Shown here: piece after piece, positions 2,018 to 58,222 of the stretch
How the letters are laid out: every line of letters starts with the position of its first letter
Numbering within the stretch: the stretch's first letter is position 1
The notes under the pieces: model-generated
What the model was told of the DNA's origin: nothing
The model's input: the letters and a program-made list of their open reading frames with translations, nothing else
The model's database searches: none
Origin: Nautilus pompilius
Lineage: Eukaryota; Mollusca; Cephalopoda; Nautilida; Nautilidae
DNA length: 64,000 nt
Assembly (NCBI GenBank): GCA_018389105.1
Contig: JACATO010001433.1
Location: 79,501 to 143,500, forward strand
Direction: 5' to 3'
Position numbers and translations under genes: made by a program

Positions 2018-2345
2018 TGACGTCATATCTCTCTGTACTGACGTCATATATAACGTCATATCTCTCTGTATTGACGTCATCTCTCCATCTCTCCCCTCCC
2101 TTCTAACGTCATATCTCTCTGTACTGACGTCATCTCTCTCCATCTCTCCCCTCCCTGACGTCATATATATATATATACTGAACTTACATCTCTGTACTGA
2201 CGTCATCTCTCTCCATCTCTCCCCTCCCTGACATCATATATATATATATATATATACTGAACTTATATCTCTGTACTGACGTCATCTCTCTCCATCTCTC
2301 CCCTCCCTTCCTGACGTCATATATATCTGTACTGACGTCAACTCT
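2018..2345 (+). repeat. CRE-minisatellite array 1
   Basis: Nine exact TGACGTCA sites between 2018 and 2340, plus AACGTCA and TGACATCA variants, separated by CT-rich spacers (CTCTCTCCATCTCTCCCC). There is a higher-order unit: the block containing (TA)n, then ACTGAACTT, then CTGTACTGACGTCA and CTCTCCATCTCTCCCCTCCC occurs twice in a row (about 2157-2230 and 2230-2310) with a longer TA run in the second copy. Short frames here (1946-2231, both strands) are encoded by the repeat and are not genes. Confidence 0.9.
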
Positions 2346-4130
2346 CTATTTAATCTGCCACATTTCGCCTGTCACCGTTTTTAACTTGAAACGTTTCGTT
2401 TCGGATTGATTGGACAAAATTCGGCTCTCGTCTCGGATTAACTCTACAAATTTCGGCTCTCTCCGTTTAACACGGAACGATTCTCGTTGACGACTGTCTT
2501 GGCACCGTCTCCGCCCTTTCCCTCCCTCCCCCCTAAAAGCCCATCACAAGCGGCAAAGGGTCGCATTTAGATTTTCTCAACGTCTCTATGCCCGGATTAG
2601 AACAGAACTTTCTTTACCAGCCACCGCGAAACTGCGTGTCCTCAGCATGTCGCTCGGTAACAATTAAACAAAAAGGATGTTTGTAAGAGTGGTAACAGCC
2701 AGAAGGAAATTCCTGCGCCTAATCCGCTTCCATTATAACGGACCTGTCTGGACCTTCCCTTTCTTTTAAATACTCTTGCTAGGGCGGGTTGATAAAATCT
2801 ACCGACGGGCCGAGGGATGAATGGCAGGGTATCAAAGTAAATCTGTCTCCTAAATATAACAAAGAATGCCAACAGACACACAACGTTATATAAACCAGCG
2901 CTTGCTTTCATTATTTCTGGAGGGAGATAAAGGGAGAGATGTACACACATACGCCACCTCTCCGTGTAAGATCGTATACCGGGTGGGTGGGTGGTGGGAG
3001 GGGGATGGTTGTGCGATGTCATCGGGATATTCGCGAAAGGCAAATATACTTATCCGGGTATACACACAAACATTAAAGAAACAGTCATGCGTATCGCGTC
3101 TTCTCTAAATACAGACATTCTCTTCGTGAAATTAAGCGCATTGGTAGAAGTGTGTGTGTTTGGGAGGGAGAGTGTAGATAAGAAGGGAATCCTTTCGTAT
3201 TGACAGATGTTGTTCAAACTCTGATGGCCAAGGATTAAAAGAGCGATACCGGCAACAACACGACGACTGCGTCGCTGGGCGTGGTTTTCAGTCGATTCGA
3301 CAGGCACCCCCGCATCCTGGCGGAAACTGGGAGCGCCCGGAAGGGAGAATTATGAAACATATTCGCGCGCATGTCCGCACATAAACTGGCCGTACACGAT
3401 TAAGGGGCGCTGAGTACACAGTTCGTCCAAGAAGAAAGTGGAAGCAAACAGACACCTAGGTGTGATGAGCCAGCGAAACAGGGGTCAGTCTTAGTAGCAA
3501 ATGCTGACCGGTGAGGTCCGAAAACGGCAACAAGAGAACGGTTAGCTTCGAGCCTCTCCCCACCCCCCCTGGATGTGTTTAAAAACCCTAACCCTGTCTA
3601 CGAGGATCCACCCGCTCCTTTTTCTCGGCACGTGCGTAACTCGTAATAATAGGTAGTTAAACGCGTTGGAACATTTGGGGGTCTAGCATTTCCGCGGAGC
3701 TGTCTTCGTTGTAGAGTATAAGCCCTGATTACCGATGATTGTCTCCCCTTCCCCGACGCCGGCTCTTCGTTAAAGTTTTCGTGGACAAGAGCAAAAAAAG
3801 AAACGGTCTTTTAACTTTTGGCTTTAAGAGGTTTCTAGGACGACCAGCCACTTTTCGAATTGGTTACATTTTTTTGAAAGACCTCCCCCCACCACCACCA
3901 CCACCCTAACAGCGTAGGGAGAATTCCTAAAAGTGCCCAGGGAACGCAGATTCTTTGATTCTGTTACACGCGCGCTTCTCACCAATGGCGTCATGTCCTG
4001 GGTGCTTTTACCACAGTCGACGAAGCTTAACTTTATCCACAAGTCAGTTTAATTTCTCACCTGAAGCTCTCACTACCACACCCTCTTTTGCCTCAAGCCT
4101 GGACAAACGGAAATTTAAATTATGTATTTG
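2346..4130. other. Non-coding stretch, no gene recognised
   Basis: Mixed-composition sequence. Small frames on both strands (for example 2642-3043 minus, 3050-3307 minus) have no recognisable motif. A short CCACCACCACCACCACC run is at about 3889-3905. Nothing else is supportable. Confidence 0.4.
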
Positions 4131-4134
4131 CTTT

Positions 4135-4545
4135 CTGATTCTAACCAAGCGAAGAACCTGGAACAAATTGGTAGAGATTATTTTTAAATGTCACTATTAT
4201 GGGGTACCTCGGGGTTCACTTCTTTCGCCTATTCTTTTTAAATATATAATTGATATCAATGCTACAACCTTTAAATTAATATTAAGTTTGTACTTGACAC
4301 CAAAATATATGGCAGGGCTTAGCACTAGTGATGTTACAAGTATTCATTCTAATTCAAATAGTTGGATATGTTGTCGAACAAATACAATTGAAATTTAATG
4401 TTTTCGAGTGCAAATATCTTAGCCATGGACAGACTGAAACAAACCAGTCTTATAATTCAGACTTTCGCTTTAATTACACAGGTGGAAAAGGGTACTGTTT
4501 TACGACTTGTAATAAATACCACCCTAAAAAGTCAAAAGCAGTATA
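4135..4545 (+). mobile_element. Decayed non-LTR retrotransposon (Jockey/CR1-type) reverse transcriptase fragment
   Basis: Three short stretches in three different plus-strand frames line up in the order expected for a LINE reverse transcriptase. GVPRGSLLSPILF at 4201-4239 corresponds to the usual GVPQGSxLGPxLF block. FVLDTKIYGRA at 4287-4319 corresponds to the FADDTK catalytic box, with the AD of the FADD core not intact. QLKFNVFECKYLSHG at 4385-4429 corresponds to the WxxKFNxxKC block just downstream. SDVTSI (about 4327) sits where the SDxxxLQ helix is expected. The frame changes twice and a stop follows the catalytic box, so the copy is dead. The endonuclease domain and 3' tail are not seen. 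The family level (Jockey/CR1 versus other non-LTR clades) is inference. Confidence 0.75.
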
Positions 4546-5879
4546 AAATAGTGTCTCAAAGCCAGTAGTGTCTAAGGTGCACTAAAGTGTATTATCAGTG
4601 GTAAACCTTCAGCGTTTCTGGTTTGTGTGTCTAAACCATTAATTAGATTCTTTTGAAGCTACCTGGTATTGGCTGGAGTCCGCAGTATCTACACAGATAT
4701 CTCGGAAAAGTACAAAGAGTTTTCGTTGCGCAGATCGGACTACAGACATTTCGCGTGGATATAATTGAAGTTATTCTCAATGTTTTTACACTAAAGAGGA
4801 CATTAAATCTCTAAGGTAGGGGGTTCACAAGCATAAGACAAAAAGCAAAAAAAAAAAATCGTTTTCGATTAGTGATTAGCTTTAGTAATTGGCTAGTGCG
4901 TGAAATTGTTTCAAAAGTCAAAGATCCACGTCGTCATCTGTTGGAATTATTAATCACAAGATTTCCTGTCGGGTTTGAAACGTTTACCCTCGTTTTATAT
5001 CGCCCTGGAATTGTGTCCATTGTTTCCACAGGTTGCGAGTTTTAAATCTGCTCGGAAGGGAGAAAGAACCCTTCGTTCTTCTTGAAGGATGGCCAATATT
5101 CGGTTTTCTAAGGGCAAGACTTAAGGCTCACGCGCTTGGAGACAGGTGTTTCTAATTTTCGGGAAGGCTGTGATACGGTGTCTGACGTCACAAGGGGTAC
5201 GGTGGTACGGCTCTAGCCTGAAGCAGGGTGCGCAGCTTCGAGTCAGATTCAAATTATATAGGACAGAGACGAACCGCGTGGTCGAGTTGTTCCTTATCCC
5301 CGGCCGTGCGTTTATATCCTGCCGGTGGATCATTCGTGCGTGGCCTCTCGGGTTGCCCGCCCGCCCGTCATTCCGGTGGGTGGGTGGCGCAAAGTCCAGG
5401 TGTCCCGGTCGTGTTGCCAGTAAATGACCCGGTGGACCTTGAGAGGACAGACGGTTTCCGACCTGAGCGCAACGACACCTGCCTAGCCGGGGTGAAAAGC
5501 GACCCCTCTCAGCCATGATCTGAGCCCCGCAGGACCGTCTTACTGCGGGTGAATAAGAACCAAAACGTCGGGTCAGACCCACTTCCCCCCCTGTTTCTGT
5601 GTATTGCCTAACAGACTAGTTCTTATTTCGAACACAACCGGCTGCCACCAGACTACACGCGTCAGTAAGGCAGCTAAGGAATTGCTCTAGTCATTTTAAA
5701 GGTAGTATTTCTGCTGAATTATTGCATTTGTTCTAATACATCGTCTAAACGGGAAAATAAGCCAAACTGAAGATTTCGCCATTCAGCTTTTCCCGCAAAA
5801 CAATCGACACTTTAAATCAGAGTTTGCTATCTAGTGATGATAAAATTTGTTTAAAGAGTCTCTCTCTCTCTCTCTCCCT
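4546..5879. other. Non-coding stretch
   Basis: Upstream half AT-rich (possibly the trailing part of the decayed retroelement), downstream half from about 5110 more GC-rich. The frames at 5121-5582 (minus) and 5146-5518 (plus) overlap one another and have no recognisable domain. One isolated TGACGTCA lies at 5183-5190. Confidence 0.4.
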
Positions 5880-5957
5880 CCTTATTTTCCTTCTTTTTCC
5901 GACAAAAGCAATTCAGCTCCTTATTTTCCTTCTTTTTCCGACAAAAGCAATTCAGCT
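5880..5957. repeat. Perfect 39-bp tandem duplication (2 copies)
   Basis: Bases 5880-5918 and 5919-5957 are identical. The unit begins CCTTATTTTCCTTC and ends AAGCAATTCAGCT. A (CT)n run precedes it and an A15 run follows shortly after. The identity suggests a recent duplication. Confidence 0.95.
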
Positions 5958-8900
5958 TCAGCTTTTAAAATAAAAAAAAAAAAAAAATGTCGCGCCCGCA
6001 GCTGGCCGAACACGGCGGCCGAGACATTCCTAGGACCGCCCACACCACACCACACCAGCTGCCATCTTGACCGTTTAACAAATTATTTGGTCGGCAGGCG
6101 GCCCCAGTGCGGGCACTGATGACAACTGATCTCCTCCTAGCCCATGCTTTCTGACGCCCTGACAGGCTTCGGTGTCCACTACTCAGCAAAACCTACCATA
6201 GTGAATCCACAAATATGCCCGGACCCTCTCATTATCCAAGCCATTCGCTTTCCTCCTTTCCCTTTACTAATTCTCACAGCATCTGCAAACCCTCCGAGCA
6301 ACAACAGAACCGAAAGTCTGACGGCACTTAAGTCGAAAACCGGTCACCTAGGACACGCAGTTAGTCAAAACGACTGGCCAGGCAGCAGATGCAATTCTTA
6401 TTTGGAACATTCCATGAAAAGATAATTTAAAAAAAAAAAAAAAAATTAAAATGACGCTTTTTTCACTTCCGTTTCGTGACCCAAGATCCGTAAAGCTGTA
6501 ACCCGAGAGGCTTTGTGACGTCATCGACCGACTGGCCGTCACCGGGCAACCGTTGAAATTCCTCCACCGACCCATGGAACTTATCGGTGTCATTTTGACT
6601 CCGGTGAAGGAATTAAAAGAGAGAGAGAAAAAAAAGAAAAAAGGGACAGACATCTGAACGCAGCGACGTGATTCATTGCTGCCATCTGATGGCTGGATAC
6701 GGGTATTTTTGCAAAACGGAACGTGACACCGACGAAATGTGACCAGAAATTTATCTTAGCTTAAAAGGCAGAGAATCCCCTGACAAGTTTCCGATACATC
6801 TTGGCTCTTTCTGCCTTTCTGACAGACTCGTGTTAGATATTATTACAAGTCTAAAGATAGGTTCAGCTGCCTCTTTAAGATCGTCCGGCGATGATCGAAA
6901 CCACTGAAACAACCTAAATAACAACTGTTTTTTAAAATACGATTGAGTGACGTATATTTTTGCCATTTCTCTTTCTTCTGGACGCTCACGTAGATGGCGG
7001 CGGCCGACCCCGAAATGGTGACGTCACTTCCGTTCCGTTTTCGGGTTTCCCCCCCCTATAAACATTAACGCAAAGGAAAGGGATTTTTTTTTTTCTTCGT
7101 TCATTTCTTTAGCGAGACATTCGCGCTTTCCGCCTTTTGTTGATTTTAAACCGGGAAAGACATAAATAAATGGCGGTCGCCCATACACTGCGGCCATGCT
7201 GTTTTGCATTCCGCCGCCCCCCTCTTTCCTTTCGGTGCAAAGCGATTAGAGGCTGATATTTGTAAATCCACTGGCGTTAACGACCAGCCAAATGCTTTGT
7301 TTAAAACCGAACCCATTTCTCACGAAGCACGCGCGCGCACTCTGGCACTGTTTATCATCTCTCGTTTTCTCCCATTCTCCAGACGCCTTTGGATACGACA
7401 TTACGAAACGGCAGCATTTCTCTGCTGGTCGGCTCCCCGCCCCCAAACCAGGAATCGGCTTTTCTTTCTTGCCAGAGACTTCGAGACGGCAGAACCTTGT
7501 AGACGAAACCGCTCAACAACACGACAAGCGAGCACGCTACGGCGCCATGACAACTCTCGCAGGGAAAAGCCGTCGTACGGGCGGACGTGGGCCAGGCCGC
7601 ACCAGCCTGCTGCTGTTCTCCTGAGGCGCGTTTTTGTTGTTTTTTTTCCCTCGTTCTTTCCTACCAGTCCATCTCCATGGGTTTCCGCGCACAGCCAAGC
7701 AATGGAGTTCCAGAGGTAGGAGGGACTTCCCGGCAGCTTGCGATAGAGTCTTTTTTCACGGATAACTCTTGATTGACTCGCACGTCGACCGCCAGCCGGT
7801 TGAATACAGCCCCAACCCCGCTATCGCAGCCTGGTAACCAGCCGCTTGGTCACAAAGCTGATACCACCCAACACTTCCCCCCTTTTATCCCCTTTTTGTC
7901 AGATAGTTTCAAAAGACCTCGAAATCGGGACAGCAGTTCTCAAAGAAAGTTTTGTTCGCGTGTGTAGACGGACGGGGGGGTGACTATTAGTTATTATTAT
8001 TATATTTCTAATTGCATCGAACAATGTCCCGATATTGTAACAATCTGGGGAAGAGGACGACATTTCGATTCATATTCTCGTCTGTAGCAAAAGGCTCGCA
8101 AATAATCTCACTTTGGCATCTATGGATTTTCCCCCGCACAAACGCATCGGCTACAGATGGAGGATGAGAGTTATGGCTGGTATCTGCGCCGATCCCGGGG
8201 CCCCAGGTTTATCTGATCGCTCGTCACGTGTCGTGCTTTAAATGCTCGTAGCCACCCCGTGCTCCAAAGCCTCGGGACTGTCTCACTCACGCATAAAACC
8301 ACTCGGTAACTTGAAAGCCGGCGAGAGAGAGAGAGAGAGATTTATCTCTAACTTTACCGGCGGCGTGAAAGACTTTAACTGGCCGGATTAAAACATGAAA
8401 GTGGTTTGTAGACAGACCCCCCGACTTACCGGCACATAAAAGTGGGACTTTTATGGTAACCGACCGACTGCCGGGTTGTCGTCCTGCGTAGGCTGTTTTT
8501 CGGCTCTCACAATAGGAAGCCATAAATCAGGTTAGCGGCGGAGAAGAAGGAAAGTTGGCTGAAGTCGGTCGGTCGGATACAGGGAGGGAGCCTCTTGACA
8601 AAGCAGCAGCCGGCTGGTATGGAGTCGGGACCAGCTAGTAAAGCTCGCAAAATAAGAGAGGGGTGTGTTGGGCAAGAAGTAGATATATTGGAGGAACCCC
8701 CCCCAAGTGTTTTGTTTACTTTTAATGAACGACTCTCTGATTTATATCCTTAAGAATAGAGAAGAAAGCACACGGTGAGTGTATGTGAATGATGGGCTCG
8801 GATAGACGTTCGCGTGAAATTTACCACGGTAACTATAGCGACGAAGCCCGTAAACGTCGTCTGGGAGAAATCGATTGCATCGTCCATTCGTTCGGTTCTG

Positions 8901-9731: not shown

Positions 9732-10170
9732 CTCTCTCTCTTGTACTGACGTCATTTCTCTCTCTCTTGTACTGACGTCATTTCTCTCCTCTCTCTTGTA
9801 CTGACGTCATTTCTCTCTCTGTACTGACGTAATTTCTCTCTCTTTACTGACGTAATTTCTCTCTCTGTACTGACGTAATTTCTCTCTCTTTACTGACGTC
9901 ATTTCTCTCTCTTGTACTGACGTCATTTCTCTCTCTTTACTGACGTCATTTCTCTCTCTGTACTGACGTAATTTCTCTCTCTGTACTGACGTCATTTCTC
10001 TCTCTTTACTGACGTCATTTCTCTCTCTCTTGTACTGACGTCATTTCTCTCTCTGTACTGACGTAATTCTCTCTCTTGTACTGACGTCATTTCTCTCTCT
10101 GTACTGACGTCATTTCTCTCTCTTGTACAGACGTCGTTTCTCTTTCTGTGATGACATCATATGTCTCTCT
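9732..10170 (+). repeat. CRE-minisatellite array 2
   Basis: About 18 units of roughly 22-27 bp, each (T)TTCTCTCTCT followed by (G)TACTGACGTCA. I count 11 exact TGACGTCA and 5 TGACGTAA, then degraded units (ACAGACGTCG, ATGACATCA) at the right end. The TGACGTAA variant recurs non-randomly, at units 4-6, 10 and 14, which suggests spread of a variant inside the array. The minus-strand frame 9807-9995 (repeating MTSVQ-type peptide) is a by-product of the repeat. Confidence 0.92.
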
Positions 10171-16130: not shown

Positions 16131-16351
16131 CATCTCTCCCTCTCTCTCTCTCTCTAGTACTGTCGGCATCTCTCTCTCGCTCGCTCTCTTTCTGTACTGT
16201 CGTCATCTCTCGAGCCTCTCGATTCTGGTACTGTCGTCAATCTCTCGGCTCTCTCTTTCTGTACTGACGTGATTCTCTCTCTCTACTAATGATGTCATCT
16301 CTCCTCTCGCTCTCTCTCGTACTGTCGTCAATATCTCTCTCTAGTACTGAC

Positions 16352-16390
<39 letters not shown>

Positions 16391-16858
16391 GTACTGTCGT
16401 CATCTCTCTCTCTCTACTACTGACATCATCTCTCTCTTCTAGTACTGACGTCATCTCTCTCTCTCTCGCTCTCTCTTTCTGTACTGACGTCATCTCTCTC
16501 TCTACTACTGACGTCATCTCTCCCTCTCGCTCTCTCTGTACTGTCGTCATCTCTCTCTCTAGTACTGACGTCATCTCTCTCTCTACTACTGACGTCATCT
16601 CTCCCTCTCGCTCTCTCTCTGTACTGTCGTCATCTCTCTCTTACTACTGACGTCATCTCTCTCTCTCTCGCTCTCTCTCTCTTTCTGTACGTCGTCATCT
16701 CTCTCTCTCTCTACTACTGACGTCATCTCTCTCTCTCTCGCTCCTCTCTCTTCTGTACTTGTCTTCATCTCTCTCTCTCTCTTACTACTGACAATCATCT
16801 CTCTCCTTCTAGTACTGACGTCATCTCCTCTCTTCTCTCTCTCTCTCTCTCTCTCTCC
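16131..16858 (+). repeat. CRE-minisatellite array 3 (with TGTCGTCA variants)
   Basis: About 22 units in which CTCTCTCT-type spacers alternate with (TAG/TTTCTG)TACTGACGTCATC. Nine cores are exact TGACGTCA. Six or so carry TGTCGTCA instead, and the others are single variants (TGACGTGA, TGACATCA, TGTCTTCA). CRE and TGTCGTCA units often alternate from about 16340 to 16720. Overlapping minus-strand frames 16353-16598 and 16595-16798 are encoded by the repeat. Confidence 0.9.
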
Positions 16859-19430
16859 CCCAAACTTAATGAAGTCGGTACGAAACGAACTAGTCGATTA
16901 CATTTATATGTGAGCATAAGTGAAAAAATGTACATCTTTACAGTCGGCAGCCTAATTTACGATTTCGGTTTTGTGGTGTATCTTTCTTTTTAAATCACTA
17001 CCCCCCCCACCCTCCCACTTTCCTCTGCCATGGCTCCGAACAACTAACTGGTTCACCGTGGGACCGGTCCGCGGACCCCCTGCGCGACCAGTGTCTCACA
17101 GGACATTACGTGAACCGCCGAGTAAAAGGAAAAAAGTAAATTGGATTTCCGCACAAGTGGGCGTGAATAGAGATCAGCGTTTGACCTGGCAGCACCCCCG
17201 TTCCACTAGGGTACATCTGGAATGGCAATAATTAAGACACGGCGGCGAATTGTAAGCCGGATGGCAAAATAGTGAGAGGGACCCTGGAGCTGAGAAACTT
17301 TCGAGAAATAAATACATTTAAAAGCAACCTTTAAGGGTACTCTCTGTTCTCCTCGCCTAGAACTTTATGGAAATGTCCCCCCCCCCACCCCGGTCTATGG
17401 AACCTGTAGATTATGTTTTATAAACCGGATGACCAAAGCCTGCGACCCCTGGCTCGTCGTATGTAGGTCAGGGTCGAACGAGTAAGTAAATAGGTGGTGG
17501 TGATGATGATGCATGCGTCCTGGAGAAAGAACCGCGAATCAACACACAGCCGGGTGGTGTATTGAGACTGGCGCCCATCCGACGACCCGTGGTGAGGCGT
17601 ATGGGCGGGGCCACGACCGACAAACGTGCGGTTCGTTATTACAGGAAACTAAGTGGCCCCTAGTCGGGGAATCACAAAATAAACGGGTAGAGCGAAGAAT
17701 ATTTAATAATAATTAAAAAAAAAACGGTGTCTTTGTACCGGCCGGCCCTTTGTCGAGCCGGGCCGCTCTTCTAACGGAAACGGGGTTTCTATAGCAACGC
17801 GACGCCGCAATCTTCGAAGACAAAAGGAGAGTTAATTTAACGCCCCGAAATCGCAGATTTGGCGGAATTGATGGAATTACGGGGGATCAGAAGGAATAAG
17901 GAAAAGGTTGCGAATTTTGTCTGAAGGGGAAAGTAGAAAAGAGAGAAAGAGATGAATCGGGGATGACTCCATATCTAATGAAGGCGGGAACGAGAGAGCT
18001 GTCGGTGGTACAAAAGAGGCATTTTGTCGTCTGCAGATTTAGTGTTCAGTGTGTGGCGCTGGGAAGGGGGCCGGAGGGGCAGATCAGCGAAAGGGCGATT
18101 CACCCCGGTACGGTTGGAGAGAAGGGGGTGTCATGGTGCCAGTCGGCCAGGAGCTACCAGCGGAATATTTACCACGAGTGCCCGGAAGAGGAAGCCCACG
18201 TGACCGGGCGGTGAAGAAGAGCGAGCCCAGGCCAACCGGCCCCCCTCAGCCTACTCCCGCCCCCCCCGCCGCCCACGTTAATAAATAAAGCAGTCGGACA
18301 CAAGAGTTCGCTCGGGATGGATTACCGGCGATGCTCATTAAAAGCGGCGCTGGGAACCGCATCGAAAACTAGTTCTCTACCCCCCCTCCCTCCCCGGAGA
18401 CTCTGTTCAAGCGGTAATGGCTTTTTGGCCATCTTCCGCTGGATGGGAAGTTGCCCATACTTGTTTTGTTTTTGTTTTTTTAATGGCCAGATCATAAAGA
18501 ACGAAACTCCATCTTTAATTGGCATTATTCCCACCAGGGCCCGCCACGAACCTTTAAGCGAGGAACTACCCTAACCCGGTGCTGCCGGCTTTTATGGATT
18601 TCTCAGAGCAACATTAGACTTTCTAGGTCCGGCGTGAGTACGGATGACGTACAATAAATCAAAGAACGACAACCGCAGAACACCTGCAGTTTGGTCGCGG
18701 TGGTGCCCATTCCGGCTGGAGAGCGAGCAGTGTGAATATGTTGGTAGCAAATCTAGTTCTGCTGGTGACCTTGACCGGGTGACCGACCCACTCCGCCTCC
18801 CTCGCGACGAGGAGTAGGAAAGCGGCTTCATTGTGTGGCTAGCCGAATTCTTGCTCTACTTTTCTTCTCACGGTCGTTTTATTTTTTTAATGCGCCGACT
18901 GGAAGAATCCCTTATTGCTGTTGTTGTTCATCATTTCACGCCCTGGACAAATTAAACTATTAACTGACTCGTTAAAAAAGAGCCTGTCTCAACATCTTTC
19001 CCGGCTCTTACTGGTTGGTACAGGTTATCCGAGTCGAACGTGGAATTTACTCGACGTTTACTGATCGAGTAAAGTCGAGGGCTTCGACCACAAAGAAAAA
19101 CGTTTGTTTTCGGACATCTGTTAGGAGGGTTTTTTGCTTCGTCTCTCGTCTGGTTGGGGTGGGGTGTGTGTGTTGTGTGTGTGTGCAGAGCCAAACAGGA
19201 AGTGGGGGTAGGCCCCGCAAACAATGTGATACAAATTCTGTTGTTGCTGCTATGTTACCGATCTGGGTTTAAATGTTATCCAAACAAGACAAAACAATGG
19301 GCTGGCCATTTTCATCCTTTTCTTAAAATGTATTTTTTGGCGGATCTGGCCGCATTTTCCGGGTTTTTTGTTGTTGTTTTTTTTTGCTTCGCACTTATCG
19401 AAACGATAAGAGTAAAGTATTCGTGCGTGC
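16859..19430. other. Non-coding stretch between arrays 3 and 4
   Basis: GC-richer unique sequence with several short C runs (for example 17001, 17378, 18380) and a (GT)n-like run near 19164-19184. The small frames at 17963-18288 and 18952-19272 have no recognisable domain. I see no gene. Confidence 0.4.
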
Positions 19431-20235
19431 GTGAGAGAGAGAGAGATGTGACGTCAGTACACAGACAGAGAGAGATATGGAGTGATGTGACGTCAGTACA
19501 CAGACACAGAGGGAGATGGAGAGAGAGATATGTGACGTCAGTACAGAGAGAGATGTGACGTCAGTACACAGACAGAGAGAGATGGAGAGGGAGAGATGTG
19601 ACGTCAGTACACAGAGAGAGATGGAGAGAGAGATATGTGACGTCAGTACAAAGAGAGAGGGAGAGATGTGACGTCAGTACACAGACAGAGAGAGATGGAG
19701 AGGGAGAGATGTGACGTCAGTACACAGAGAGAGGAGAGAGAGAGATGTGACGTCAGTACAGAGAGAGATGTGACGTCAGTACACAGACACAGAGAGAGAT
19801 GACATCAGTACAGAGAGAGAGATGGAGAGATGTGACGTCAGTACACAGACACAGAGGGAGATGGAGAGAGAGATATGTGACGTCAGTACAGAGAGAGATG
19901 TGACGTCAGTACACAGACAGAGAGATGGAGAGGGAGAGATGTGACGTCAGTACACAGAGAGAGAGGGAGAGATGTGACGTCAGTACACAGACAGAGAGAG
20001 ATGGAGAGAGACATGTGACGTCAGTACACAGACAGAGAGAGATATGTGACGTCAGTACAGAGAGAGAGATGGAGAGATGGAGAGATTGACGTCAGTACAC
20101 AGACAGAGAGAAATGGAGAGAGAGGACATGTGGACGTCAGTACAGAGAGAGAGATGGAGATATGTGACGTCAGTACAGAGAGAGAGATGGAGAGATGTGA
20201 CGTCAGTACACACAACACACACACAGACAGAGAGA
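19431..20235 (-). repeat. CRE-minisatellite array 4 (largest, inverted orientation)
   Basis: The array reads as (GA)n, then GATGTGACGTCAGTACA, then CAGACAGAGAGAG on the plus strand, the reverse complement of arrays 1-3. I count about 20 exact TGACGTCA, one TGGACGTCA and one TGACATCA. Units come in a short form (GTACAGAGAGAGATGTGACG) and a long form with ACACAGACAGAGAG and GATGGAGAGGGAGAG inserts, in irregular alternation. Frames at 20046-20369 and 20021-20289 are produced by the repeat. Confidence 0.93.
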
Positions 20236-23200
20236 GAGAGTGTGTTTCTTCCCCTCCCTCCGGGCAAAGTTTCCATTCGGGCGGACTAAGCGGAAGGACG
20301 TACGTGTGTGTTGCTAGTAATCAATTACCTCAACCCCCCCGTCTCTCTTACTTTGGAAAAAAACGTTAGAACAGGCGAGATAAAGGAGACGGAACCCCGC
20401 GCCACGAGTTCAAAGTGACGCCCAATTATCGTCGGTGTTTTTGTAGTTGCACCAGCGCCAATTACGCCGGACAGACGAGAGGCCGTTCCCATAGACGCCG
20501 CTACCGGCGACAGGACACGAACGAGTCGGCACGGAGTAAACTTTCGGCCATTCACGCCGCCTGTCCGAATCCGTCGAAACCCCCCCTCCACCTTTTCATA
20601 CCTTTGAACAAGGGCGGCTTTGATATCTCGGGGTGCGTGGAGGGAGGCTTCAGTGCGGCGTGCGGTCCACCGCCACACGGTGTAGCAGCCATCATTGTGA
20701 GGGTGACTGTCGACGCTCGCGCAGTAGCCAGCGACACGCTCCGCTGGAGAAACACAGGCGCCCTCTATTAGACCAGATACGTAATTACGATTTGATGACA
20801 TAAGAGGGCACCTGTAGGCGACCCGCGGTTAATTTACGGTAGAGGAGGACCCCCCTCTCTTTCTTTCTCTAATACCTGTCCTTTAAAGCATTTTATTTAT
20901 TTATTTTTTTTTAAAAAAGAAAAAGAAAAAGAGGGACCCAGCCGGCGGGATAATATTGTCGTAAAGTGATTGGGGGCGTCCATTTACCTATCATGCGTAG
21001 GCACCAGTTATTAACTTCCATCTTTCAGTTTTCGTCGTTAAGGGGTACACTGAAAAGCGGCTGGTTGGTTGCCTGCCTGCTGTCCGCGATTCCCGGCTCA
21101 TAATACCGGGCTCGCCGACGTGGAATGGCTATTTGACGCCGGTAAGCATTTAATAATGTGTACCGGGGCGTTATGCAAATCACTGGCGTGTAATAGGGCT
21201 GCGTAATATTATAAGCGATGTAAGCCCCCCACGTCGCGGACAAGCAAAGTATCTTTCAGCATTTAATTATAGGCCCAGGACGCATGGCCGAGAGGGAATT
21301 AATAGAGCGTGCATTAAACAGAAAGATAAGTTGTGGTGGGGGGAGGGAGTTTCTGCCGTAACCCTAACTTACTTCACTCCTCTCCCCTCTGTTTCTTTGC
21401 GCTTGACAGCCTCGTGTGTGTGTGTGTGTGTGGAGGGGCCTTAAAATGTAGACGATAGCATCGCGTACGTTTTTACCGCCATTTAAAGACGCGAGGCTCG
21501 CACGTGAGTGTGGCTGACAGTACTGGGCTTCTCCTCCACCCCTTTATTTTACCTGAAGACCGGGGTTAGGGTCATTTATATCTTTAAAAAAGGAGGGGGC
21601 GAAGGAATTCCTAAAACCACGAGCGGACATTTTTACAAAAATGCATCTATTCACGATCCAAGGACGGACGGACGTTACAGGTGACGTAAGCAGGTGGCTC
21701 CCCCTGGTTCCGTGACGTATCGACGTATCCTCGAGCCGGCGTAAACTTTCTTCTGTAACCACGTGACACTTTGAAATTGTTTTTTTTTTTTTACGTGTGT
21801 GTGTGTGTGTGTGTGTGGGGGGAATCTGCTTTGTGTAACGGCTCGGCCGTTTCTGTTTCGCTACCAATGTTGATAACTCGCCTTTGTTATGACGTGAGAG
21901 AAGATAATTAACGACAAACCGCCGGGTTTTTGATAAGGACGGTGCCCGCGGCGCTTTACGGGGTTATCGCCCTTCCACGCATTTTCGGCCTGCGGTATTT
22001 CGTGCGCCTGTTCCGAAGAAGGAAGGGTGGAGAAATAATGATGGAGAGATTTTATCGGCTGCCTGGGCCATCCGTCTGGGTGTTGAGTCATCTGGCGATA
22101 GGCGAGGCGGAGGGGCAATTTCTCTAACAGCAGGAATCGCCCTCTGGTTTATTTCAAACGATGGCGGGTACGCGCCCGTTATTAGGCTGGTGATCGGGAT
22201 ATTCCAGAAATCTCTAATACGTCACCAATACGCTGATGGAAAAGCATTGACACCGAAAAATATCGTTCTTCAGTTCCCAGCCCTCCAGGTTCAAAGCCGA
22301 GCCAGTTGGCTTTGTTCTAACAGTAGTTGTTCGCACAACACTCTGAGTTAACTCCACCTCCTCGACAACATCCCGTCTGCAATAACCAACTCCTATGAAG
22401 GCAATAACGGTTGACCTCAGGTGCCATTTTCACCTATAGGAAAAAAAACAAACAAACAAACATTCAGTATTTAGCTTCATCACATAAACATCGTATGAAC
22501 TAGCAATTATTTTAAATGGTGGAAAGAAGCGTTAACAGATGAACACGATAACGCCAGGGTTTCGGTGTGAAATAAAACTTAGCATTAAAAAAAAAAACAA
22601 ACAAACCGCTGGGTGTCCATATTAGCGGTCAGGTTTTGAAGTGCTGACATCACAATTAGCCGTTTATGTGTTGGCGCACGGCTTAGCAAATAAAATTTTC
22701 TTATTTTTTTTTTTATTTTGCAGAGGTAAGGTATTTTCATTTAGAATTAAATGTTTGGAAAAGCAGGTGCTGGTCGTCTTGGTAGGGCGTGCTCATGATT
22801 TTGAACGCCAGTGTATATGTGCTTTGTCGTGGTCGCTCGTACGGAGAGATGGGCTGAAACAAATGGTCCACTTCCAGGCGGTTCGCTCCTACTCCACCAA
22901 ACTTGGCTTGTCGTTACAGCCCCCCCACCCCAGCCTAACTCTCCCCATTTTTATTTACACTGAAGCAAAATCCCTGTTTACCTTATCTATAATCGCTGAC
23001 ACGGAGACCAGAAACACCATACATCTCCCGGCATCCATTTGACATTTATTCGGTATTGTGGTTCTTTATGGCAGCCATTACCGACAAAGCAAAGTCTACT
23101 CCCCTCAGTGCGTCGCACAAAAGCCCCTCCTCCTCCTCCTGCTGCTGCTGCTGCTGCTACAGATGGAGGGATTACGGAGCCCGTTCATCGTCTCGTGGCG

Positions 23201-26109: not shown

Positions 26110-26387
26110 GGTCCAGAGAACAGGCTTTTGTTTACGCAATAGCATCAGCTGCCCTCGTGCACTCCGTGGCGCGGGCTTGCAGCATAGGGGTGACTACCAA
26201 GTGCAGTTGCGGGGCGCTGCCAAACAGCCCACCCCCGGGATCTTTTAAATGGGGCGGCTGCGGCGATGACGTGCAGTTTGGACTTCGTTTCAGCACGGCC
26301 TTCACCGACATCTCGCTTGTATCCAAGCGACGGCGGAAAAAGAAGAAGGCCAAGATGAACAGGCACAACAACGAGGCTGGCAGGAAG
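26110..26387 (+). CDS. Wnt11: Wnt family (Wnt11-like) internal exon
   Basis: Internal coding exon of a secreted Wnt ligand, which signals through Frizzled receptors. It starts after the acceptor TTTCTTTTCAG (AG at 26108-26109), completes a split Gly codon, then encodes 92 residues and ends in phase 0 at AAG|GTGAGT. Visible Wnt hallmarks are SREQAFVYAIASAA (residues 1-14), HSVARAC (17-23), the KCSC cysteines (31, 33), KWGGCGDD (46-53), FGLRFSTAFTD (56-66) and MNRHNNEAGRK (82-92). The H(S/A)(V/I)ARAC block and the two-exon pattern fit Wnt11 best. Wnt16 shares VHSV and WGGC-DDVQ-G, so subfamily assignment is not certain. Residues 72-81 form a run of nine basic residues (SKRRRKKKKAK) in the variable loop before MNRHNNE. 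Joins to 59197-59489. Minus-strand frames here (26132-26371, 26145-26552) are shadows. Confidence 0.93.
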
Positions 26388-27008: not shown

Positions 27009-27410
27009 GGAGAGAGAGAGAGAGAGAGAGAGATATGACATCAATACTAGAGAGGGGGGAGAGACAGAAAGATGACGTCAGTACTAGAGAGACAGAGACA
27101 GAGATGACGTCAGTATTAGAGAGAGAGAAAGAGAGAGACAAAGAGATGACGTCAGTACTAGAGAGAGAGTGACAGAGAGATGACGTCAGTACTAGAGAGA
27201 GAGAGCAGGGAGAGAGAGACAGAGAGATGACGTCAGTACTAGAGAGACAGAGACAGAGATGACGTCAGTACTAGTGAGAGAGAGAGGGAGGGAGAGAGAC
27301 AAAGAGATGACGTCAGTACTAGAGAGAGAGAGAGAGAGATGACGTCAGTACTAGAGAGAGAGACAGAGAGATGACGTCAGTACTAGAGAGACAGAGACAG
27401 AGATGACGTC

Positions 27411-27441
<31 letters not shown>

Positions 27442-27532
27442 TGCGTCAGTACTAGAGAGAGAGAGAGAGAGAGAGCAGGGAGAGAGAGAGACAGAGAGAT
27501 GACGTCAGTATTAGAGAGAGAGAGAGAGAGAT
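27009..27532 (-). repeat. CRE-minisatellite array 5
   Basis: GA-rich spacers alternating with GATGACGTCAGTACTAGAG on the plus strand. About 13 units, 11 with exact TGACGTCA, plus TGACATCA at the left edge and TGCGTCA near 27442. Starts about 620 bp after the Wnt exon donor. Same sequence type and orientation as array 9 at the other end of the intron. Confidence 0.92.
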
Positions 27533-30758: not shown

Positions 30759-31002
30759 ACTCTCTCTCTCTCTGGTACTGACGTCATCCCTCTCACCGCA
30801 CTGACGTCATATCTCTCTCTCTAGTACTGGCATCATGTCTGTCTCTCTCTCTCTAATACTGACGTCATCCCTCTCACCATACTGACGTCATATCTCTCTC
30901 TCTAGTACTGACGTCATCCCTCTCACCATACTGACGTCATATCTCTCTCTCTAGTACTGACATCATGTCTGTCTCTCTCTCTAATACTGACGTCATGTCT
31001 CT
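30759..31002 (+). repeat. CRE-minisatellite array 6 (three-type higher-order repeat)
   Basis: Nine units, seven with exact TGACGTCA. Three spacer types occur in an ordered pattern: A = CATCCCTCTCACC(AT/GC)AC, B = CATATCTCTCTCTCTAGTAC, C = CATGTCTGTCTCTCTC..AATAC, in the order A-B-C-A-B-A-B-C. Before the C spacer the core is degraded (TGGCATCA, TGACATCA) both times, so the degraded core is part of the amplified higher-order unit. Confidence 0.93.
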
Positions 31003-34000
31003 TGACCAGTTACTCATTCCTATGCCATCTATCTATTCCGCTCCCAGAAAAGCGACTCGGGCACGTTTTGTTTTTAAATAGGTTTGAGGTAAACGCTAGC
31101 ATTCAGTGCTTTAAAGAACAGCTGATTTACTTGGGGGGGTGGGTAACGATCACGTGGTCTGACGTAGGCGAATGGCGCAGAACACGTTGGGTGGATTAAA
31201 CTAACCATCGGCGGGCTTCTTGTATACTACCGGTGAGAAGTAAACGTTACGGGTCGAAGCTGGAAGCAGGTGTAGGACAGAACGACAGCCATAGTCGAAG
31301 AAACCAAATCGGTTCCGGTTTGAACAAATGCATAAGCGACCCATGTGCTGCATTACACTGATACGTAAGCTCTCCCATGTACCGGCCGCTCCTGTAACTG
31401 CGTATGATGTCGGCAGTAAACTCCGGTACAACTGCAGTCACGTAGCTTATAGATCCCCAAAATAACTCATTGAAAGCCTTCGATTATGTGATACTGTTAT
31501 CAGTTGCCATAGGAACGGTTTTTAACGAACCGCATTCATCGCAATTTCTATTTATAAGGACGAAAGATAAAGAAAACGGAAACTTAGCAAAAATCAAAGA
31601 TTTTAAAACTTATAATACAATTTTTTTTTAAAAAAAAAATGCGTATGAATATAAAAAATCAAAATAAAGCTTCGAATAGAAGCCAACATCGCATAAATTA
31701 TCCTCCTCCCATTACTTTCGTTTTTAGTTGCATTCAAATACTCCCGAAAGGTGGATGGGTAGTAGTCGGGCTAATTAACCAAGATGGAGCAGCACGACTA
31801 TCAGACGTGTATATTTAATGGGGTTTCTGCCCCCACCCTTTGACATTTTTTTTGCCGAGTCCGGTATGCAAGGTTCGCTCGAAGTGAGCGGACCCCCCAA
31901 CTTTCCGCCCGGTAACCGAATACCTTTCCGCTGACACCTAACGAGACCGCGACGTCCGTCAGCTTAGATTAGTTCGGAGTCGGGCGGGGTTCTCACGAGC
32001 TGTACGTCATCGGAAAGCCCTGGAAACATCCCCTTCTCGTTTTGTCTCTATTCGGCCGCCGAAAGTCAGGTTTTTTGGGATGGACGGTTCAAGGGCTGCA
32101 GTACTCCGGAGAGCGGGACACCCCACTTACTTCCGCCTCATTAATGCGCGACGGTAATTTCCACGCTCTTTCTCGCGATAACTTTCGTTTCAGGTCGAGC
32201 GGGAGGGGAACCTGACTTGGGTTCGGTTTATACCCTTTGAAGGGTGGGTTCGTTTAAGGAATAACATGAAATTTACGACTGCAAGAAGATTAAATCCAGA
32301 GCGAGGCTTTGCTAATTTCGCTATGCACTCACTACAAGGAGCTCGGCATACAACGCCCGTCTGAAGGGAGCCGGTGAAGTCTGCCAGAGGTTATCAGATA
32401 AACATCGCGTGCCACGTCATTCTCCATATTGTGTCATGCACTAAAGATATGTCAGCCTTATCAGCATCTTGCCTCGTACTAACTAAAGGGTCTGTCATAG
32501 GCACTGGTGAACCAGAATAAACCGTAGTAACAACTGGAAACGTTTCTTTGGAAGACCGGAAGTGACGCAACCGGGTTTTTTTTTCCCCTCATCCCAGCAC
32601 GTGCTTCGCTGCGCACAGTAAGCGAATTACTGGCGAATAAATATTTGGATTCATCTTTTACAAACGGAATAGTTTCAGTTTTACTTGTGTATTTAAAACC
32701 AGGCACTATTAAAGTTTTATCGGTAAAGTCCTTTAATAGAGTTATTTAAACTAATTTAAATATGAAATACCTATACCCCCGTAATTAATAATCGTTTATG
32801 TTTTAGGAGCATCTGGTCTAACTTGTTTTGTGACTTCAAGCTACGCATCAGGGCAGCAGCGAAAAGACGACGTATGTGGTATTGTCCATGAAACAAAAGG
32901 TTCAGAATGACTGGATGTACATACTCAGCCTGTATTTTTAAAATTTACATTTGAGTTTTGGCTGGAATTCGAAGCCTTTTCTTCACCTGATCTTTGTCAG
33001 CGGGCGTCATCAGTACGTAATACGGTTTAAATAAATAAATTCTTGTCTATTTTGGCATCCAAAGCAACAGTTTTCTCGCGGAAATATAAAAAAAAAAAAT
33101 CATAGAATTAGACCATTTAAAACGGTAAGAAGGGAGAAAATGCCAAGAAGGGGGCAGCAGTTTTTGGTGCTGTGCTACCTATACCAAGAAAGAAACTAGC
33201 ATAGGGCCATGAGGTGGAAAAAAGAGACAGAGATTTAAAGGGTTTCTCAAAGAGCAAAAAAGAAAGAAAGGGGGGGACGCGTTATCTTTCATAAGCGGCT
33301 CCCGAATTTACTTTTTTTCCCCGCTGTATCTGAAAATTTTGATGGCTTCATTCGTCAAGTTTTGTATCGACTCAATAAAAGATCAGAGACGTGAAAGATG
33401 CAAACTCCCAATCTTGGGGTTAGGTGCGGGAGGAAACAACACTTAAGGACATTTTTTTTTGTTGTTGAAAATCTGATTCGCTCGCCTGTGGCTAAAATGT
33501 ACAGATGCGCGAAGACCCACCTGCCTGTAGGCAGCCAGGGTAGCGGAATTTTCAGTTTCGAAAGTTAGTGACGACAACGTAGAAGAAACGGGGCGAATCC
33601 TAGCGACGGAAGTGACTTGTTTGACTCCCGATTCTGCCCTTATTTTGTAGTGGAGCAACTTGGACACCGTCGACGGACAAAATGGAAAGTTAGGGTTAGG
33701 GTGACGGAAGGGGAGGATCCGGCCAAAACTATACCGTTCCTCCCAAAGTATACATTTTTGAGAGCGAATGAGAGGCGCGAGGATGAAAACTTCGAGGTGT
33801 TCGACTGGCTAGAAGATAGGGAAGACATTGGTGGGAGTGGAGCAAAAAGGCAAGATACCCTCAGATAAAGTCTTGAAATCGACACTTAATAGTGAGGAGA
33901 TACTTGGAGCAATGCTTGGGATATAGAAAAGGGTATCCTTTTTGTGGGGGGTTGGTGGGTAAGGAACTAGAAAACGATGTGAGGAGAGGGAGGGAGAGAG

Positions 34001-34033: not shown

Positions 34034-34270
34034 ACTCTCTCTCTGTACTGACGTCATATCTCTCATGACGTCATCTCTATGTACTGATGTCATATCTCTC
34101 CCGACGTCATATATATATCTCTCTGTGTGTACTGACGTCATATTTCTCATGGCATCATATCTATGTACTGACGTCATATCTCTCCTGACGTCATCTCTCT
34201 CTGTGTACTGACGTCATATCTCTCTCTGTGTACTGACGTCATCTCTCTCTCTCTCTCCTCTCTCTCTCTC
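34034..34270 (+). repeat. CRE-minisatellite array 7
   Basis: Ten units, seven exact TGACGTCA, plus CGACGTCA, TGATGTCA and TGGCATCA. Spacers are CTCTCTGTGTAC or ATCTCTC, and several units alternate the long TGTACTGACGTCA form with a short CTC(A/C)TGACGTCA form. Ends in a (CT)n tract. Confidence 0.92.
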
Positions 34271-44997: not shown

Positions 44998-45104
44998 TCT
45001 CTCCATCTCTCTCTCTCCATCTCTCTCTCTCTCGTACAGACCTTATCTCAGTACTGACGTCATCTCTCTCTCTCTCTCGTACAGACGTTTATCTCAGTAC
45101 TGAC

Positions 45105-45160
<56 letters not shown>

Positions 45161-46285: not shown

Positions 46286-46800
46286 GTAAATTCTCCTTAC
46301 TTCTTCAGATCAGACCCGCAGTGTCTCTAAATCCTCCTTAGTTTTGCAGAACGGACCGCAGTCTCTCTAAATTCTCCTTACTTCTTCAGAACAGTCCCCG
46401 CAGTGTCTCTCTAAATCCTCCTTAGTTTTGCAGAACGGACCCGCAGTGTCTCTAAATCCTCCTTAGTTTTGCAGAACAGACCCGCCAGTGTCTCTAAATC
46501 CTCCTTACTTCTTCAGAACAGACCCGCAGTCTCTCTAAATTCTCCTTACTTCTTCAGAACAGACCCGCAGTCTCTCTAAATTCTCCTTACTTCTTCAGAA
46601 CAGTCCCCGCAGTGTCTCTAAATCCTCCTTACTTCTTCAGAACAGACCCGCAGTCTCTCTAAATTCTCCTTACTTCTTCAGAACAGTCCCCGCAGTCTCT
46701 CTAAATTCTCCTTACTTCTTCAGAACAGTCCCCGCAGTGTCTCTAAATCCTCCTTAGTTTTGCAGAACGGACCCGCAGTGTCTTTAAATTCTTCGTAGTA
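46286..46800 (+). repeat. 41-bp minisatellite, about 12 units
   Basis: Units of 40-43 bp with the order TTA(C/G)TT(C/T)T(T/G)CAGAAC, then (A/G)G(A/T)CCC(C)GCAGT, then (C/G)TCTCTAAAT(T/C)CTCC. Two subtypes occur: one with TTACTTCTTCAG and one with TTAGTTTTGCAG. The outermost copies on both sides are the most degraded. Every unit has a CTAAAT, a pyrimidine stretch and a terminal CAG in the sense direction of the Wnt gene. Confidence 0.95.
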
Positions 46801-54348: not shown

Positions 54349-54396
54349 CAATAATAATAATAATAATAATATAATAATAATAATAATAATAATAAT
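54349..54396. repeat. (AAT)n microsatellite
   Basis: About 15 AAT repeats with one interruption; it generates poly-Y/poly-I/poly-L shadow frames on the minus strand. Confidence 0.97.
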
Positions 54397-55350: not shown

Positions 55351-55381
<31 letters not shown>

Positions 55382-55735
55382 ACCCTCCCGGCAGATGCGT
55401 GGCTAATTACGGTCTGTTTATGGCGACCCCCCCTCCCCCTTCAGTCCAAACCCCGTGGTGAGCGGAGGAACCGGATCGTCAGCGACACGGAGGCTCGAGC
55501 ATAAAAGGGAAGAGCTATTCCAGACCTCCGCTTGTTATGTTCATCGGAAGGTTTGAGAAAGAAAAAAAACAACAAGAGAGGGGAAAGTCGATGAAAAGCG
55601 AGAGCTGAATTCTATAGCCATTGTTTAGTAAATCTTAATCTGTCGCGTTATTCCTTTCCGGGTTTGTTTTCATTTTTCACTGTGCGGGCGGATATCAGGG
55701 GCTTTCGGTTAATTCTAGTTGTCAGCATCGAGTGG
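54397..55735. other. Intronic stretch, no gene recognised
   Basis: Short (CAA)n near 54747-54764, C13 at 55048-55060 and (AC)n at about 55355-55381. Nothing else recognised. Confidence 0.45.
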
Positions 55736-55950
55736 AGGGAGAGAGAGAGAGAGGGAGAGAGAGGGAGAGAGAGGAAAGGAGAGATGGAGAGAAGAGAGAT
55801 GGAGAGAGAGGGAGAGAGAGAGAGAGATGAGAGAGAGGAGAGAGAGAGGATGGGGAGAGAGAGAGGGAGAGAAAGAGAGAGGATGGAGAGAGGGGAGAGG
55901 AGAGAGCAGAGATGGAGAGAGAGAGAGAGGAGAGAGAGATGGAGAGAGAT
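55736..55950. repeat. 215-bp GA/GGAGAGA purine tract
   Basis: Nearly pure purine plus strand made of GAGAGA, GGAGAGAGA, GATGGAGAG and GAAAGAGAG blocks, broken only by a few T and C bases (in ATGG and GCAG). No TGACGTCA. Frames of poly-ERE peptides (55664-56011, 55719-55952) are artefacts. Confidence 0.95.
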
Positions 55951-57463
55951 GACCCTTTTTATACTACTGTACCCTGTAATGCATCATCATCCCAGTTGGC
56001 CAGAACTGTAAACTCTCTTCTTCTTTTATTAAAAAAAAAAATTTTTTTTTCATATTTCAGGATTTTCTTTTAAATACTAATATCCCCGCGTAACTATCAG
56101 CACTAATGTACCGATTCCATAGAATATACGGAATATTCCATTGACGAGTCCCCAAATTGTGGCAGCTAGTTTAGTATCTCTGTCGCGGTAACCGGCACGG
56201 GATTTCATTGTCGGTTCCCTCTATATTGTAATATTCCCGTCATCCCTTTGTGTGCGTGTGTGCGCCAGTAATTAACCCTTTGAGGGTTACGCCTTACATT
56301 TACGGGTGTACTTCTCAGTTTTAAGTTGTAGTGAAGGTGACGTCTTTTGACGTCCACCCTCAGTTCATCAGTTATCCCAGCACCTCTCGGTGTGTGAGCC
56401 CAGCCTCTTCCGCTTCTTTCTTGTTGAGACGGTGAGAATCCGTTCGCGGGAAGCCATGCTCCCAGCTCCACTGGGAGGTGCTTTTCGAAAGCCTTAGATA
56501 CAGTTGGGTGTGGCGAGTAATGAATACTTCGGAACATCCGGGAATCGCCAGGGCACGAGTCGATAGCTATCGATTATTTCTTTGATGATTCGCGATTAAC
56601 AATTTTTTTCGGTGGAAACGAACAGCCTGACGCGGACGTGGGCCCCGTTTCGAGACAAAACCGCCACAGGATATCGGTTTCTCTTAAAGACCGAAACAGG
56701 ATCTTCGCCCTCTTGGGAAGGGGTCCGCCCAGACATCCACCAGCGCGTAGATTTAATTACTGGCGACGAGGAAATTAGACTTCGATAAAAAAAAATTTTT
56801 TTTTTTTAATCGACAAAAAGGGAATTCTTCTCTACGCTCGTGTCCCCCCACCCCCTTTTTTTTTTCTTTTTTTGCCATTGTCCGTTTTCGCGGTGCTCCC
56901 TTTAACCGCAGATCAACGGGGTCGTTTTTCAGAAGACCATTACTGCGGTCGGGCCGTTGTTGCTCCGATGCCACAACATCCGTGAGCGGCGGGAAGCCTC
57001 TTGTTCGCGGGTGTTAAGGGACCATTTTTCGAGGATAGCTTAGCTCTTTGTTGATGATGGACGAATGGGCATTTAAAGACCCGAAATTCCACCTCTACAG
57101 ATATACCCCCCAAACGAAAGTTCTGGTGAATCTTTTGTTCAGAAGACTCGTGGGTAGAATTCAAACGCGTTATCGGACTCTTAAAGGATGTGATGCAAAA
57201 TATCGATAACTTGGTGCACTAATGGGGGTGAAATTTGAAAGGGTTTAGTAGTGACTTAATTCTGTTTAAAATAACGCAAACGAATATTTTTTTAATAACA
57301 AACTTTAAAAAAAAAAGGTATCCTTTCCTTCTATGCGTCTCAATGAGAGTGATATCGATTTTCGCTGAAAAGCTTAATTTTTCTAAAGGGTTAACGTTTC
57401 AGTGGAGCGAACACCGGTGCAATTACAGATCAGGAAAGTTAATTTCGGCCCAAGCGTTTGTGT
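55951..57463. other. Intronic stretch, no gene recognised
   Basis: Two head-to-head homopolymer junctions (A11T9 at 56031-56050 and A9T12 at 56787-56807). Frames at 56205-56537 and 56940-57164 (minus) have no motif. Confidence 0.45.
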
Positions 57464-58170
57464 GAGAGAGAGAGAGAGAGAGATATGACGTCAGTACTAG
57501 AGAGATGACGTCACAGTACTAGAGAGAGATGACGTTACGTCAGTACTAGAGCTAGGGAAAGAGGGAGATGACGTCAGACGTCAGTACTAGAGAGAGAGAG
57601 ATGACGTTACGTCAGTACTAGAGTTAGGGAAAGAGGGAGATGACGTCAGTACTAGACAGAGAGAGAGATGACATCACATCAATACTAGAGAGAGATGACG
57701 TTACGTTAGTACTAGAGCTAGGGAAAGAGGGAGATGACGTCAGTACTAGAGAAAGAGAGAGAGATGACGTTACGTCAGTACTAGAGTTAGGGAAAGAGGG
57801 AGATGACGTCAGTACTAGACAGAGAGAGAGATGACATCACATCAATACTAGAGAGAGATGACGTTACGTCAGTACTAGAGCTAGGGAAAGAGGGAGATGA
57901 CGTCAGTACTAGACAGAGAGAGAGATGACATCACATCAATACTAGAGAGAGATGACGTTACGTCAGTACTAGAGCTAGGGAAAGAGGGAGATGACGTCAG
58001 TACTAGAGAGAGAGAGAGAGAGATGACGTTACGTCAGTACTAGAGTTAGGGAAAGAGGGAGATGACGTCAGTACTAGAGAGAGAGAGAGAGATGACGTTA
58101 CGTCAGTACTAGAACTAGGGAAAGAGGGAGATGACGTCAGTACTAGAGAAAGAGAGATGACAGTACTTCA

Positions 58171-58222
<52 letters not shown>
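57464..58222 (-). repeat. CRE-minisatellite array 9 with TGACGTTACGTCA
   Basis: About 10 exact TGACGTCA and about 8 copies of the extended near-palindrome TGACGTTACGTCA (plus one ACGTTAGT variant). The higher-order unit, about 70-80 bp, is GATGACGTTACGTCAGTAC, then TAGAG(C/T)TAGGGAAAGAG, then GGAGATGACGTCAGTAC, then TAGA(C)AGAGAGAG, sometimes with a TGACATCACATCAATAC unit. The array ends in (GA)24 at 58175-58222, about 970 bp before the Wnt acceptor. Confidence 0.93.

Follow-up and report, generated by a model that had tools for sequence, protein, structure and literature searches.

CRE-bearing minisatellite arrays in CT tracts of the Nautilus pompilius genome look more like a spreading repeat family than like gene switches

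Analysis of a 64-kb stretch of the Nautilus pompilius genome (hereafter the window) revealed nine arrays that combine CT tracts with the perfect palindrome of the cAMP response element (CRE), of which they hold 86 copies. We have high confidence that a dispersed repeat family exists here, and its arrays look like those of a spreading family rather than gene switches. The explanation that we favour, and consider probable, is that of a dispersed minisatellite family growing in CT tracts and copied from tract to tract, with the CRE mainly a passenger; our confidence in the mechanism of its growth and spread is moderate.

The window contains 96 exact copies of the core TGACGTCA, as against a mean of 0.81 and a maximum of 4 in 100 dinucleotide shuffles, none of which attains 96. 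A previous sequence-only reading of this DNA gave a chance expectation of about one core per 64 kb, and its hand counts for the nine arrays (9, 11, 9, 20, 11, 7, 7, 2 and 10; total 86) were all exactly reproduced, the remaining 10 copies being singles outside the arrays. Across the 727.6-Mb assembly the exact 12-mer TACTGACGTCAT occurs 37,003 times versus 311 for the reversed pattern (119-fold), a count that bears out the proposed dispersed family. TGACGTCA itself occurs 93,914 times versus 19,528 for its reversed control, a nearly five-fold excess that calls for caution in motif-enrichment studies of this genome. Because those 37,003 copies have the TAC...T context, this excess is probably due in large part to CRE-bearing arrays. 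Although assemblies are error-prone in simple-sequence regions, the shuffles and the reversed control refute chance, and we consider it vanishingly improbable that the arrays are a chance product or assembly artefact of simple sequence. The idea of an ordinary, genome-uniform satellite, raised in the same reading, holds in that the motif is genome-wide but fails on uniformity, the array-motif density of the window being about 17 times the genome average.

In six arrays the CT strand lies on the forward strand and in three on the reverse strand, confirming that both orientations occur; relative to CT the orientation of the arrays is constant. The forward set comprises array 1 (2008..2347, 9 exact TGACGTCA), array 2 (9732..10170, 11 copies, 23-bp unit), array 3 (16133..16861, 9 copies, with AGTAC, CTAC and GTAC units), array 6 (30760..31003, 7 copies), array 7 (34035..34270, 7 copies) and array 8 (44998..45160, 2 copies). 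The reverse set comprises array 4 (19433..20240, 20 copies), array 5 (27017..27532, 11 copies, chiefly in AGTAC units) and array 9 (57464..58223, 10 copies). Array 9 has a higher-order organization with a period of about 163 bp (69+94), the copies of which are up to 98% alike and are recent. The notion of one shared core stands for TGACGTCA, which is found in all nine arrays, but not for TACTGACGTCAT, which has only 56 copies in the window (37 on the forward and 19 on the reverse strand) and none in array 4, at 19.4 kb, where the unit is based on the subtype TACTGACGTCAC. Variant cores are intermixed in several arrays, for example TGTCGTCA in array 3 (16.1 kb) and TACTGACGTAACGTCA in array 9 (57.5 kb), and further arrays lie on the same contig within 20 kb of the window (two in segment L009 and one in L012). 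CT tracts devoid of the core also exist, 10 of the 19 (CT)7+ clusters in the window having TGACGTCA within 300 bp; the family, with its one core motif, is distinct from plain CT slippage, as had been claimed.

Two contigs were studied in depth, yielding 30 arrays (12 and 18, respectively) that were located through their matches. Read along the CT strand, (CT)n-GTAC-TGACRTCA-T and (CT)n-CC-TGACRTCA-T are the units seen most often, with the most frequent core spacings at 17-25 and 38-40 bp; TRF also reports repeat units. CT-bearing edges (6 bases or more) are present on the leading side of 27 of the 30 arrays, on the trailing side of 28 and on both sides of 25, and at all ten of ten further loci the outermost core on each side has a CT run of at least 6 bases no more than 25 bp away. 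The arrays display the features of dispersed minisatellites, namely tandem units of about 7-100 bp, many loci, a shared core and unique flanks. Classical satellite DNA was considered and rejected as a label, very long arrays being absent (median length about 517 bp, n=30) and five of the nine window arrays lying in a gene intron.

The occurrence of one complex motif at many unrelated places requires copying, and there are mobile elements that contain tandem repeats; hence the arrays might be what is left of a short transposable element of that sort, for instance a MITE or a retroposon that targets CT. However, a blastn comparison of 79 flanks (up to 300 bp each; 40 arrays on 11 contigs) recovered three matching pairs, all of them GA/CT/CAT simple sequence, and no common element ends, so that no transposon body is seen. 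An Rfam search of the whole window likewise returned nothing at gathering score, which bears on RNA-derived elements only. An element whose body had vanished at every locus would still fit these data, but we regard a transposon origin as unlikely. The CT tracts that flank the arrays on both sides make short target-site duplications hard to recognise.

Under the favoured account of growth in CT tracts, slippage and unequal exchange would raise the number of units in a tract, perhaps with the aid of pairing between neighbouring palindromic cores, and ectopic gene conversion or template switching, with CT serving as the homology, would copy units from tract to tract. In single-strand folding, six of eight array segments (two of the eight being opposite strands of one stretch) had z <= -2 relative to shuffles. 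Arrays on one contig had a k-mer cosine similarity of 0.451 versus 0.361 on the other (permutation p=0.0008), and the subtypes are unevenly distributed: the AGTAC type accounts for 7 of 12 arrays on one contig versus 2 of 18 on the other, and the CTCC type for 2 of 12 versus 13 of 18. Against this account, similarity within each contig does not decay with distance (Spearman -0.002 and -0.09). Nor were array edges more decayed than the middles (p=0.75 for the 28 arrays having 8 or more cores), unlike a simple unequal-exchange model; change at the 5' edge tended, if at all, to be lower (p=0.058). Should units indeed be copied from one CT tract to another, this would offer a transposon-free route for the wide dispersal of a short motif, and could seed transcription-factor sites into the introns of developmental genes.

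Such a gene is present in the window. A Wnt exon at 26110..26387 and the next one found, at 59197..59489 (both on the forward strand, with boundaries judged by eye from AG/GT), together match PF00110 with E=2.3e-66; an NCBIfam search with the Wnt fragment gave no match. The 32.8-kb intron between them (26388-59196) houses arrays 5 to 9. The presence of five arrays in a single Wnt intron, the 86 perfect CREs and the local density speak for a regulatory reading, in which CREB/ATF bZIP proteins would bind the densely clustered CREs, the arrays would act on the Wnt gene and selection would keep them; tandem repeats with homotypic motif clusters can act as enhancers (PMC13373173). Sequence conservation gives a mixed answer. 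In 180 copies anchored on GTAC, per-position identity of the core (0.78-0.87) is hardly above that of spacer positions 10 to 15 after GTAC (0.73-0.84), which, by the test set in the earlier reading, speaks against a regulatory role; in favour of one, a leave-one-out count gives 2.9-9.6% variation at the six non-CpG core positions, whereas of the four adjacent bases three vary more (15.0-23.9%) and one does not (4.5%). Further, 287 core spacings show no 10.5-bp helical phasing, and the arrays, split six to three between the strands, have no fixed orientation to the Wnt gene. Considering also the CpG changes and the CRE-less arrays of the same build described below, the claim that the arrays are maintained as CREB/ATF platforms lacks support, and such a role appears improbable.

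The CpG of the core is its most frequent site of change: of the 30 arrays, 11 show C>T there and 14 show G>A, and no other single change is seen in more than 6. By copies, the CRE arrays have 47 CpG transitions and 5 non-CpG changes, each versus 582 exact; eight other minisatellites pooled have 45 CpG transitions versus 333 exact (42 of the 45 coming from L025) and 18 non-CpG changes versus 620, the minisatellite at L011, which itself carries TGACGTCA, being excluded from this total (3 changed, 4 exact). Loci selected for CpA yielded 72 copies of TGACATCA and 1 of TGATGTCA, an asymmetry which suggests that TGACATCA is a spread subtype and on account of which we do not claim CpG methylation. 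Five of the ten CpA-selected loci are without any TGACGTCA and yet have the same architecture (3, 3, 24, 3 and 12 copies of TGACATCA), indicating that an intact CRE is unnecessary for expansion.

These CRE-less arrays also bear on the alternative that the core is a meiotic hotspot of the M26/CRE type, at which bZIP binding to ATGACGT(CA) would favour breaks whose repair expands and spreads the arrays. The M26 heptamer ATGACGT lies in the reverse complement of TGACGTCAT and is present in eight of the nine window arrays, and TGACGTCAT is also found in a minisatellite with a 29-bp unit that is unrelated to the family (L011:8045-8307). However, the heptamer is lacking from array 4, despite its 20 cores, the five TGACATCA arrays without an intact CRE show that expansion does not need the motif, and the hotspot paradox predicts the loss of such a motif. 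In both fission yeast and budding yeast CRE/M26 gives rise to hotspots (PMC9775316, PMC3534124), but some CREs are inactive as hotspots even in fission yeast (PMC9775316). A self-spreading hotspot, made less likely by the CRE-less arrays, seems quite unlikely. By analogy, an animal counterpart of M26 can be envisaged, wherein bZIP-bound CREs in CT tracts promote germline breaks, repair copies the unit into other CT tracts, and the TGACATCA arrays are derivatives growing by slippage alone; we hold this to be highly doubtful. Under the favoured passenger account, bZIP binding to the cores, if any, would be incidental.

A literature search at the level of titles and abstract openings found no description of a CRE-bearing CT-tract minisatellite family, and one 19-base pattern had no matches in IMG/VR. 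Among known systems, the Jeffreys-type human minisatellites are comparable in forming dispersed arrays with a common short core and otherwise unique flanks, for which a role in recombination was proposed; their core is G-rich and their arrays are not nested in CT tracts, whereas here it is a palindrome inside CT. The founding minisatellite papers are named in PMC3880010. The ade6-M26/CRE hotspot of fission yeast shares the identical heptamer, bound there by an ATF/CREB-class bZIP factor, but involves single sites, whereas here there are arrays, some without the motif (PMC9775316, PMC3534124). An enhancer that MORC3 represses, a tandem repeat in which PU.1 sites are clustered, likewise has dense homotypic transcription-factor sites; that case is one interferon enhancer with functional data, as opposed to many arrays recognized by their sequence (PMC13373173). 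The sugar beet BvMSat07, a minisatellite derived from a microsatellite, is similar in its dispersal and in having a unit composed of a microsatellite plus other short motifs; it differs in being from a plant and in its GATCA sequence, with no CRE mentioned in the excerpted account, and its authors propose that palindromic motifs may favour slippage (PMC2820488).

The exact CRE core, TGACGTCA, occurs 96 times in the window as against 0.81 times in shuffles, and 86 of these copies lie in the nine arrays in which the sequence-only reading had recognized a dispersed family of CRE-bearing minisatellites; its hand counts for the individual arrays agreed exactly with ours, and the other ten copies are singles. 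Across the assembly to which the window belongs (727.6 Mb, 2558 contigs) we recovered 18,388 + 18,615 matches to TACTGACGTCAT, where its reversed control gave 145 + 166, and 93,914 places with TGACGTCA against 19,528 for its reversed control. The density of the exact 12-mer is 50.9 per Mb in the genome and 875 per Mb in the window (17x). Scaling up roughly from 30 arrays, we arrive at ~6,300 arrays, or ~0.5% of the genome, an estimate valid only to an order of magnitude because the sampled arrays were found through matches on two contigs.

These 30 arrays (12 on the window's own contig, C1362, and 18 on another, C1) remained from 36 detected clusters after removal of six that lay inside another array and were opposite-strand echoes of the palindrome. 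Both orientations are represented, as had been proposed, with three of the nine window arrays on the minus strand. When the CT strand is read, GTAC (or AGTAC, CTAC, ATAC) stands before the majority of cores, with a T and then a CT run after them, and the 19.4-kb array (array 4; 19433..20240, minus strand) is of a TACTGACGTCAC subtype. Core-to-core spacings (n=287) peak at 17, 23, 21, 25 and 19 bp, with additional modes at 38 and 40, and show no 10.5-bp phase. CT-bearing edges of at least 6 bases were found on the leading side of 27, the trailing side of 28 and both sides of 25 of the 30 arrays; likewise, in ten extra loci on nine other contigs, selected via a TACTGACATCAT match, a CT run lies no more than 25 bp from the outermost core at either end. 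A blastn comparison of 79 flanks of 40 arrays recovered just three matching pairs, each of simple sequence.

Among 180 GTAC-anchored copies following a CT run, identity is 0.78-0.87 in the core and 0.73-0.84 at spacer positions 10 to 15. Leave-one-out variation amounts to 2.9-9.6% at the six non-CpG core positions, 7.4 and 13.0% at the two CpG positions, and 4.5, 23.9, 16.7 and 15.0% at the four bases adjoining the core, part of this flank variation being accounted for by the CTCC unit type. By array, the CpG changes most often (C>T in 11/30, G>A in 14/30; any other single change in at most 6/30); CpG observed/expected for the window is 1.01.

TACTGACATCAT occurs 4,907 times genome-wide (2,434 + 2,473; reversed control 143). 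Five of the ten loci sampled at such matches (L033, L034, L035, L039 and L040) lack TGACGTCA, a proportion without meaning because the loci were selected for the variant; they contain 3, 3, 24, 3 and 12 copies of TGACATCA respectively, and share the CT setting of the CRE arrays. Three of the five are small; L035 (contig C7, ~150.3-151.8 kb) is a 1.5-kb array with no TGACGTCA, representing an amplified CpA subtype. The ten loci together hold 72 copies of TGACATCA and one of TGATGTCA; therefore, the core change was probably amplified after its origin. L035 and L040 show that the CRE is unnecessary for array expansion. This bears on a bold alternative, namely that an M26/CRE hotspot, as known in yeasts (PMC9775316, PMC3534124), lies behind the arrays: the heptamer ATGACGT is common to that hotspot and eight of the nine window arrays, but array 4 and the CRE-less arrays both weaken this reading.

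The ten single TGACGTCA copies of the window (5183, 6516, 7019, 11331, 13929, 25178, 29339, 38982, 53804 and 62545) stand in non-CT context. Over 142.6 kb of unmasked sequence off arrays and CT tracts, 16 copies were found where base composition predicts 2.0 (8x); TCACGTGA, with 17 copies outside CT tracts in the sampled loci, is similarly ~8x above expectation. Among 24 singles from the window and loci L009-L032, 20 are in non-CT context, two lie in CT remnants (L018) and two belong to a separate minisatellite (L011). The 20 non-CT singles look like ordinary CREs, and a search for regulation would probably do better to start from them than from the arrays. The L011 minisatellite (8045-8307; C1362, ~12 kb before the window) has ~9 copies of a 29-bp unit containing TGACGTCAT in non-CT context, with variants TGATGTCA, TGACGCCA and TGACATCA. 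L021 carries a pair of similar 18-bp minisatellites separated by 2 kb (5774-5880 and 7784-7868), with TTTACGTCAT and TTTACGCCAT in their units.

Two window exons with boundaries set by eye (26110-26387 and 59197-59489) code for a portion of a Wnt protein (PF00110, E=2.3e-66), and five of the nine arrays lie within the 32.8 kb separating them, which we read as one intron. This intron also carries a 41-bp minisatellite of ~12 copies without the core (46287-46797). At L025:4237 an array starts directly 3' of an apparent 5' splice site (CAG, GTGAG, CT run; by eye). Open frames of 191, 126 and 137 residues, close together on the contig (window 1-573 and L009:8709-9970, both minus strand), may be parts of one protein or mobile element.

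AGTAC-type units occur in 7/12 arrays of C1362 and 2/18 of C1 (p=0.013), CTCC-type units in 2/12 and 13/18 (p=0.008), and arrays are closer in k-mer content to others of their own contig than to those of the other contig (permutation p=0.0008); therefore, array subtypes differ between the two sampled contigs. Within C1362 and C1, k-mer similarity does not fall off with distance. Array 9 (57464..58223, minus strand) is a higher-order repeat with copies alike up to 98%.

The arrays thus combine CT nesting, unique flanks, contig-level subtypes and local amplification. Within tracts, units would multiply through slippage and unequal exchange, perhaps assisted by pairing of neighbouring palindromes; six of eight array segments have a folding z of -2 or lower. 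Between tracts, units would be copied via CT homology. The absence of distance decay in similarity and the undecayed array edges count against this mechanism. Among the papers listed in a literature search of titles and abstract starts, none described this CRE/CT minisatellite family. Dispersed minisatellites having a common core are a known class, and we file the arrays as a new family within it. The family is also placed with minisatellites grown from microsatellites, which have been described (PMC2820488).
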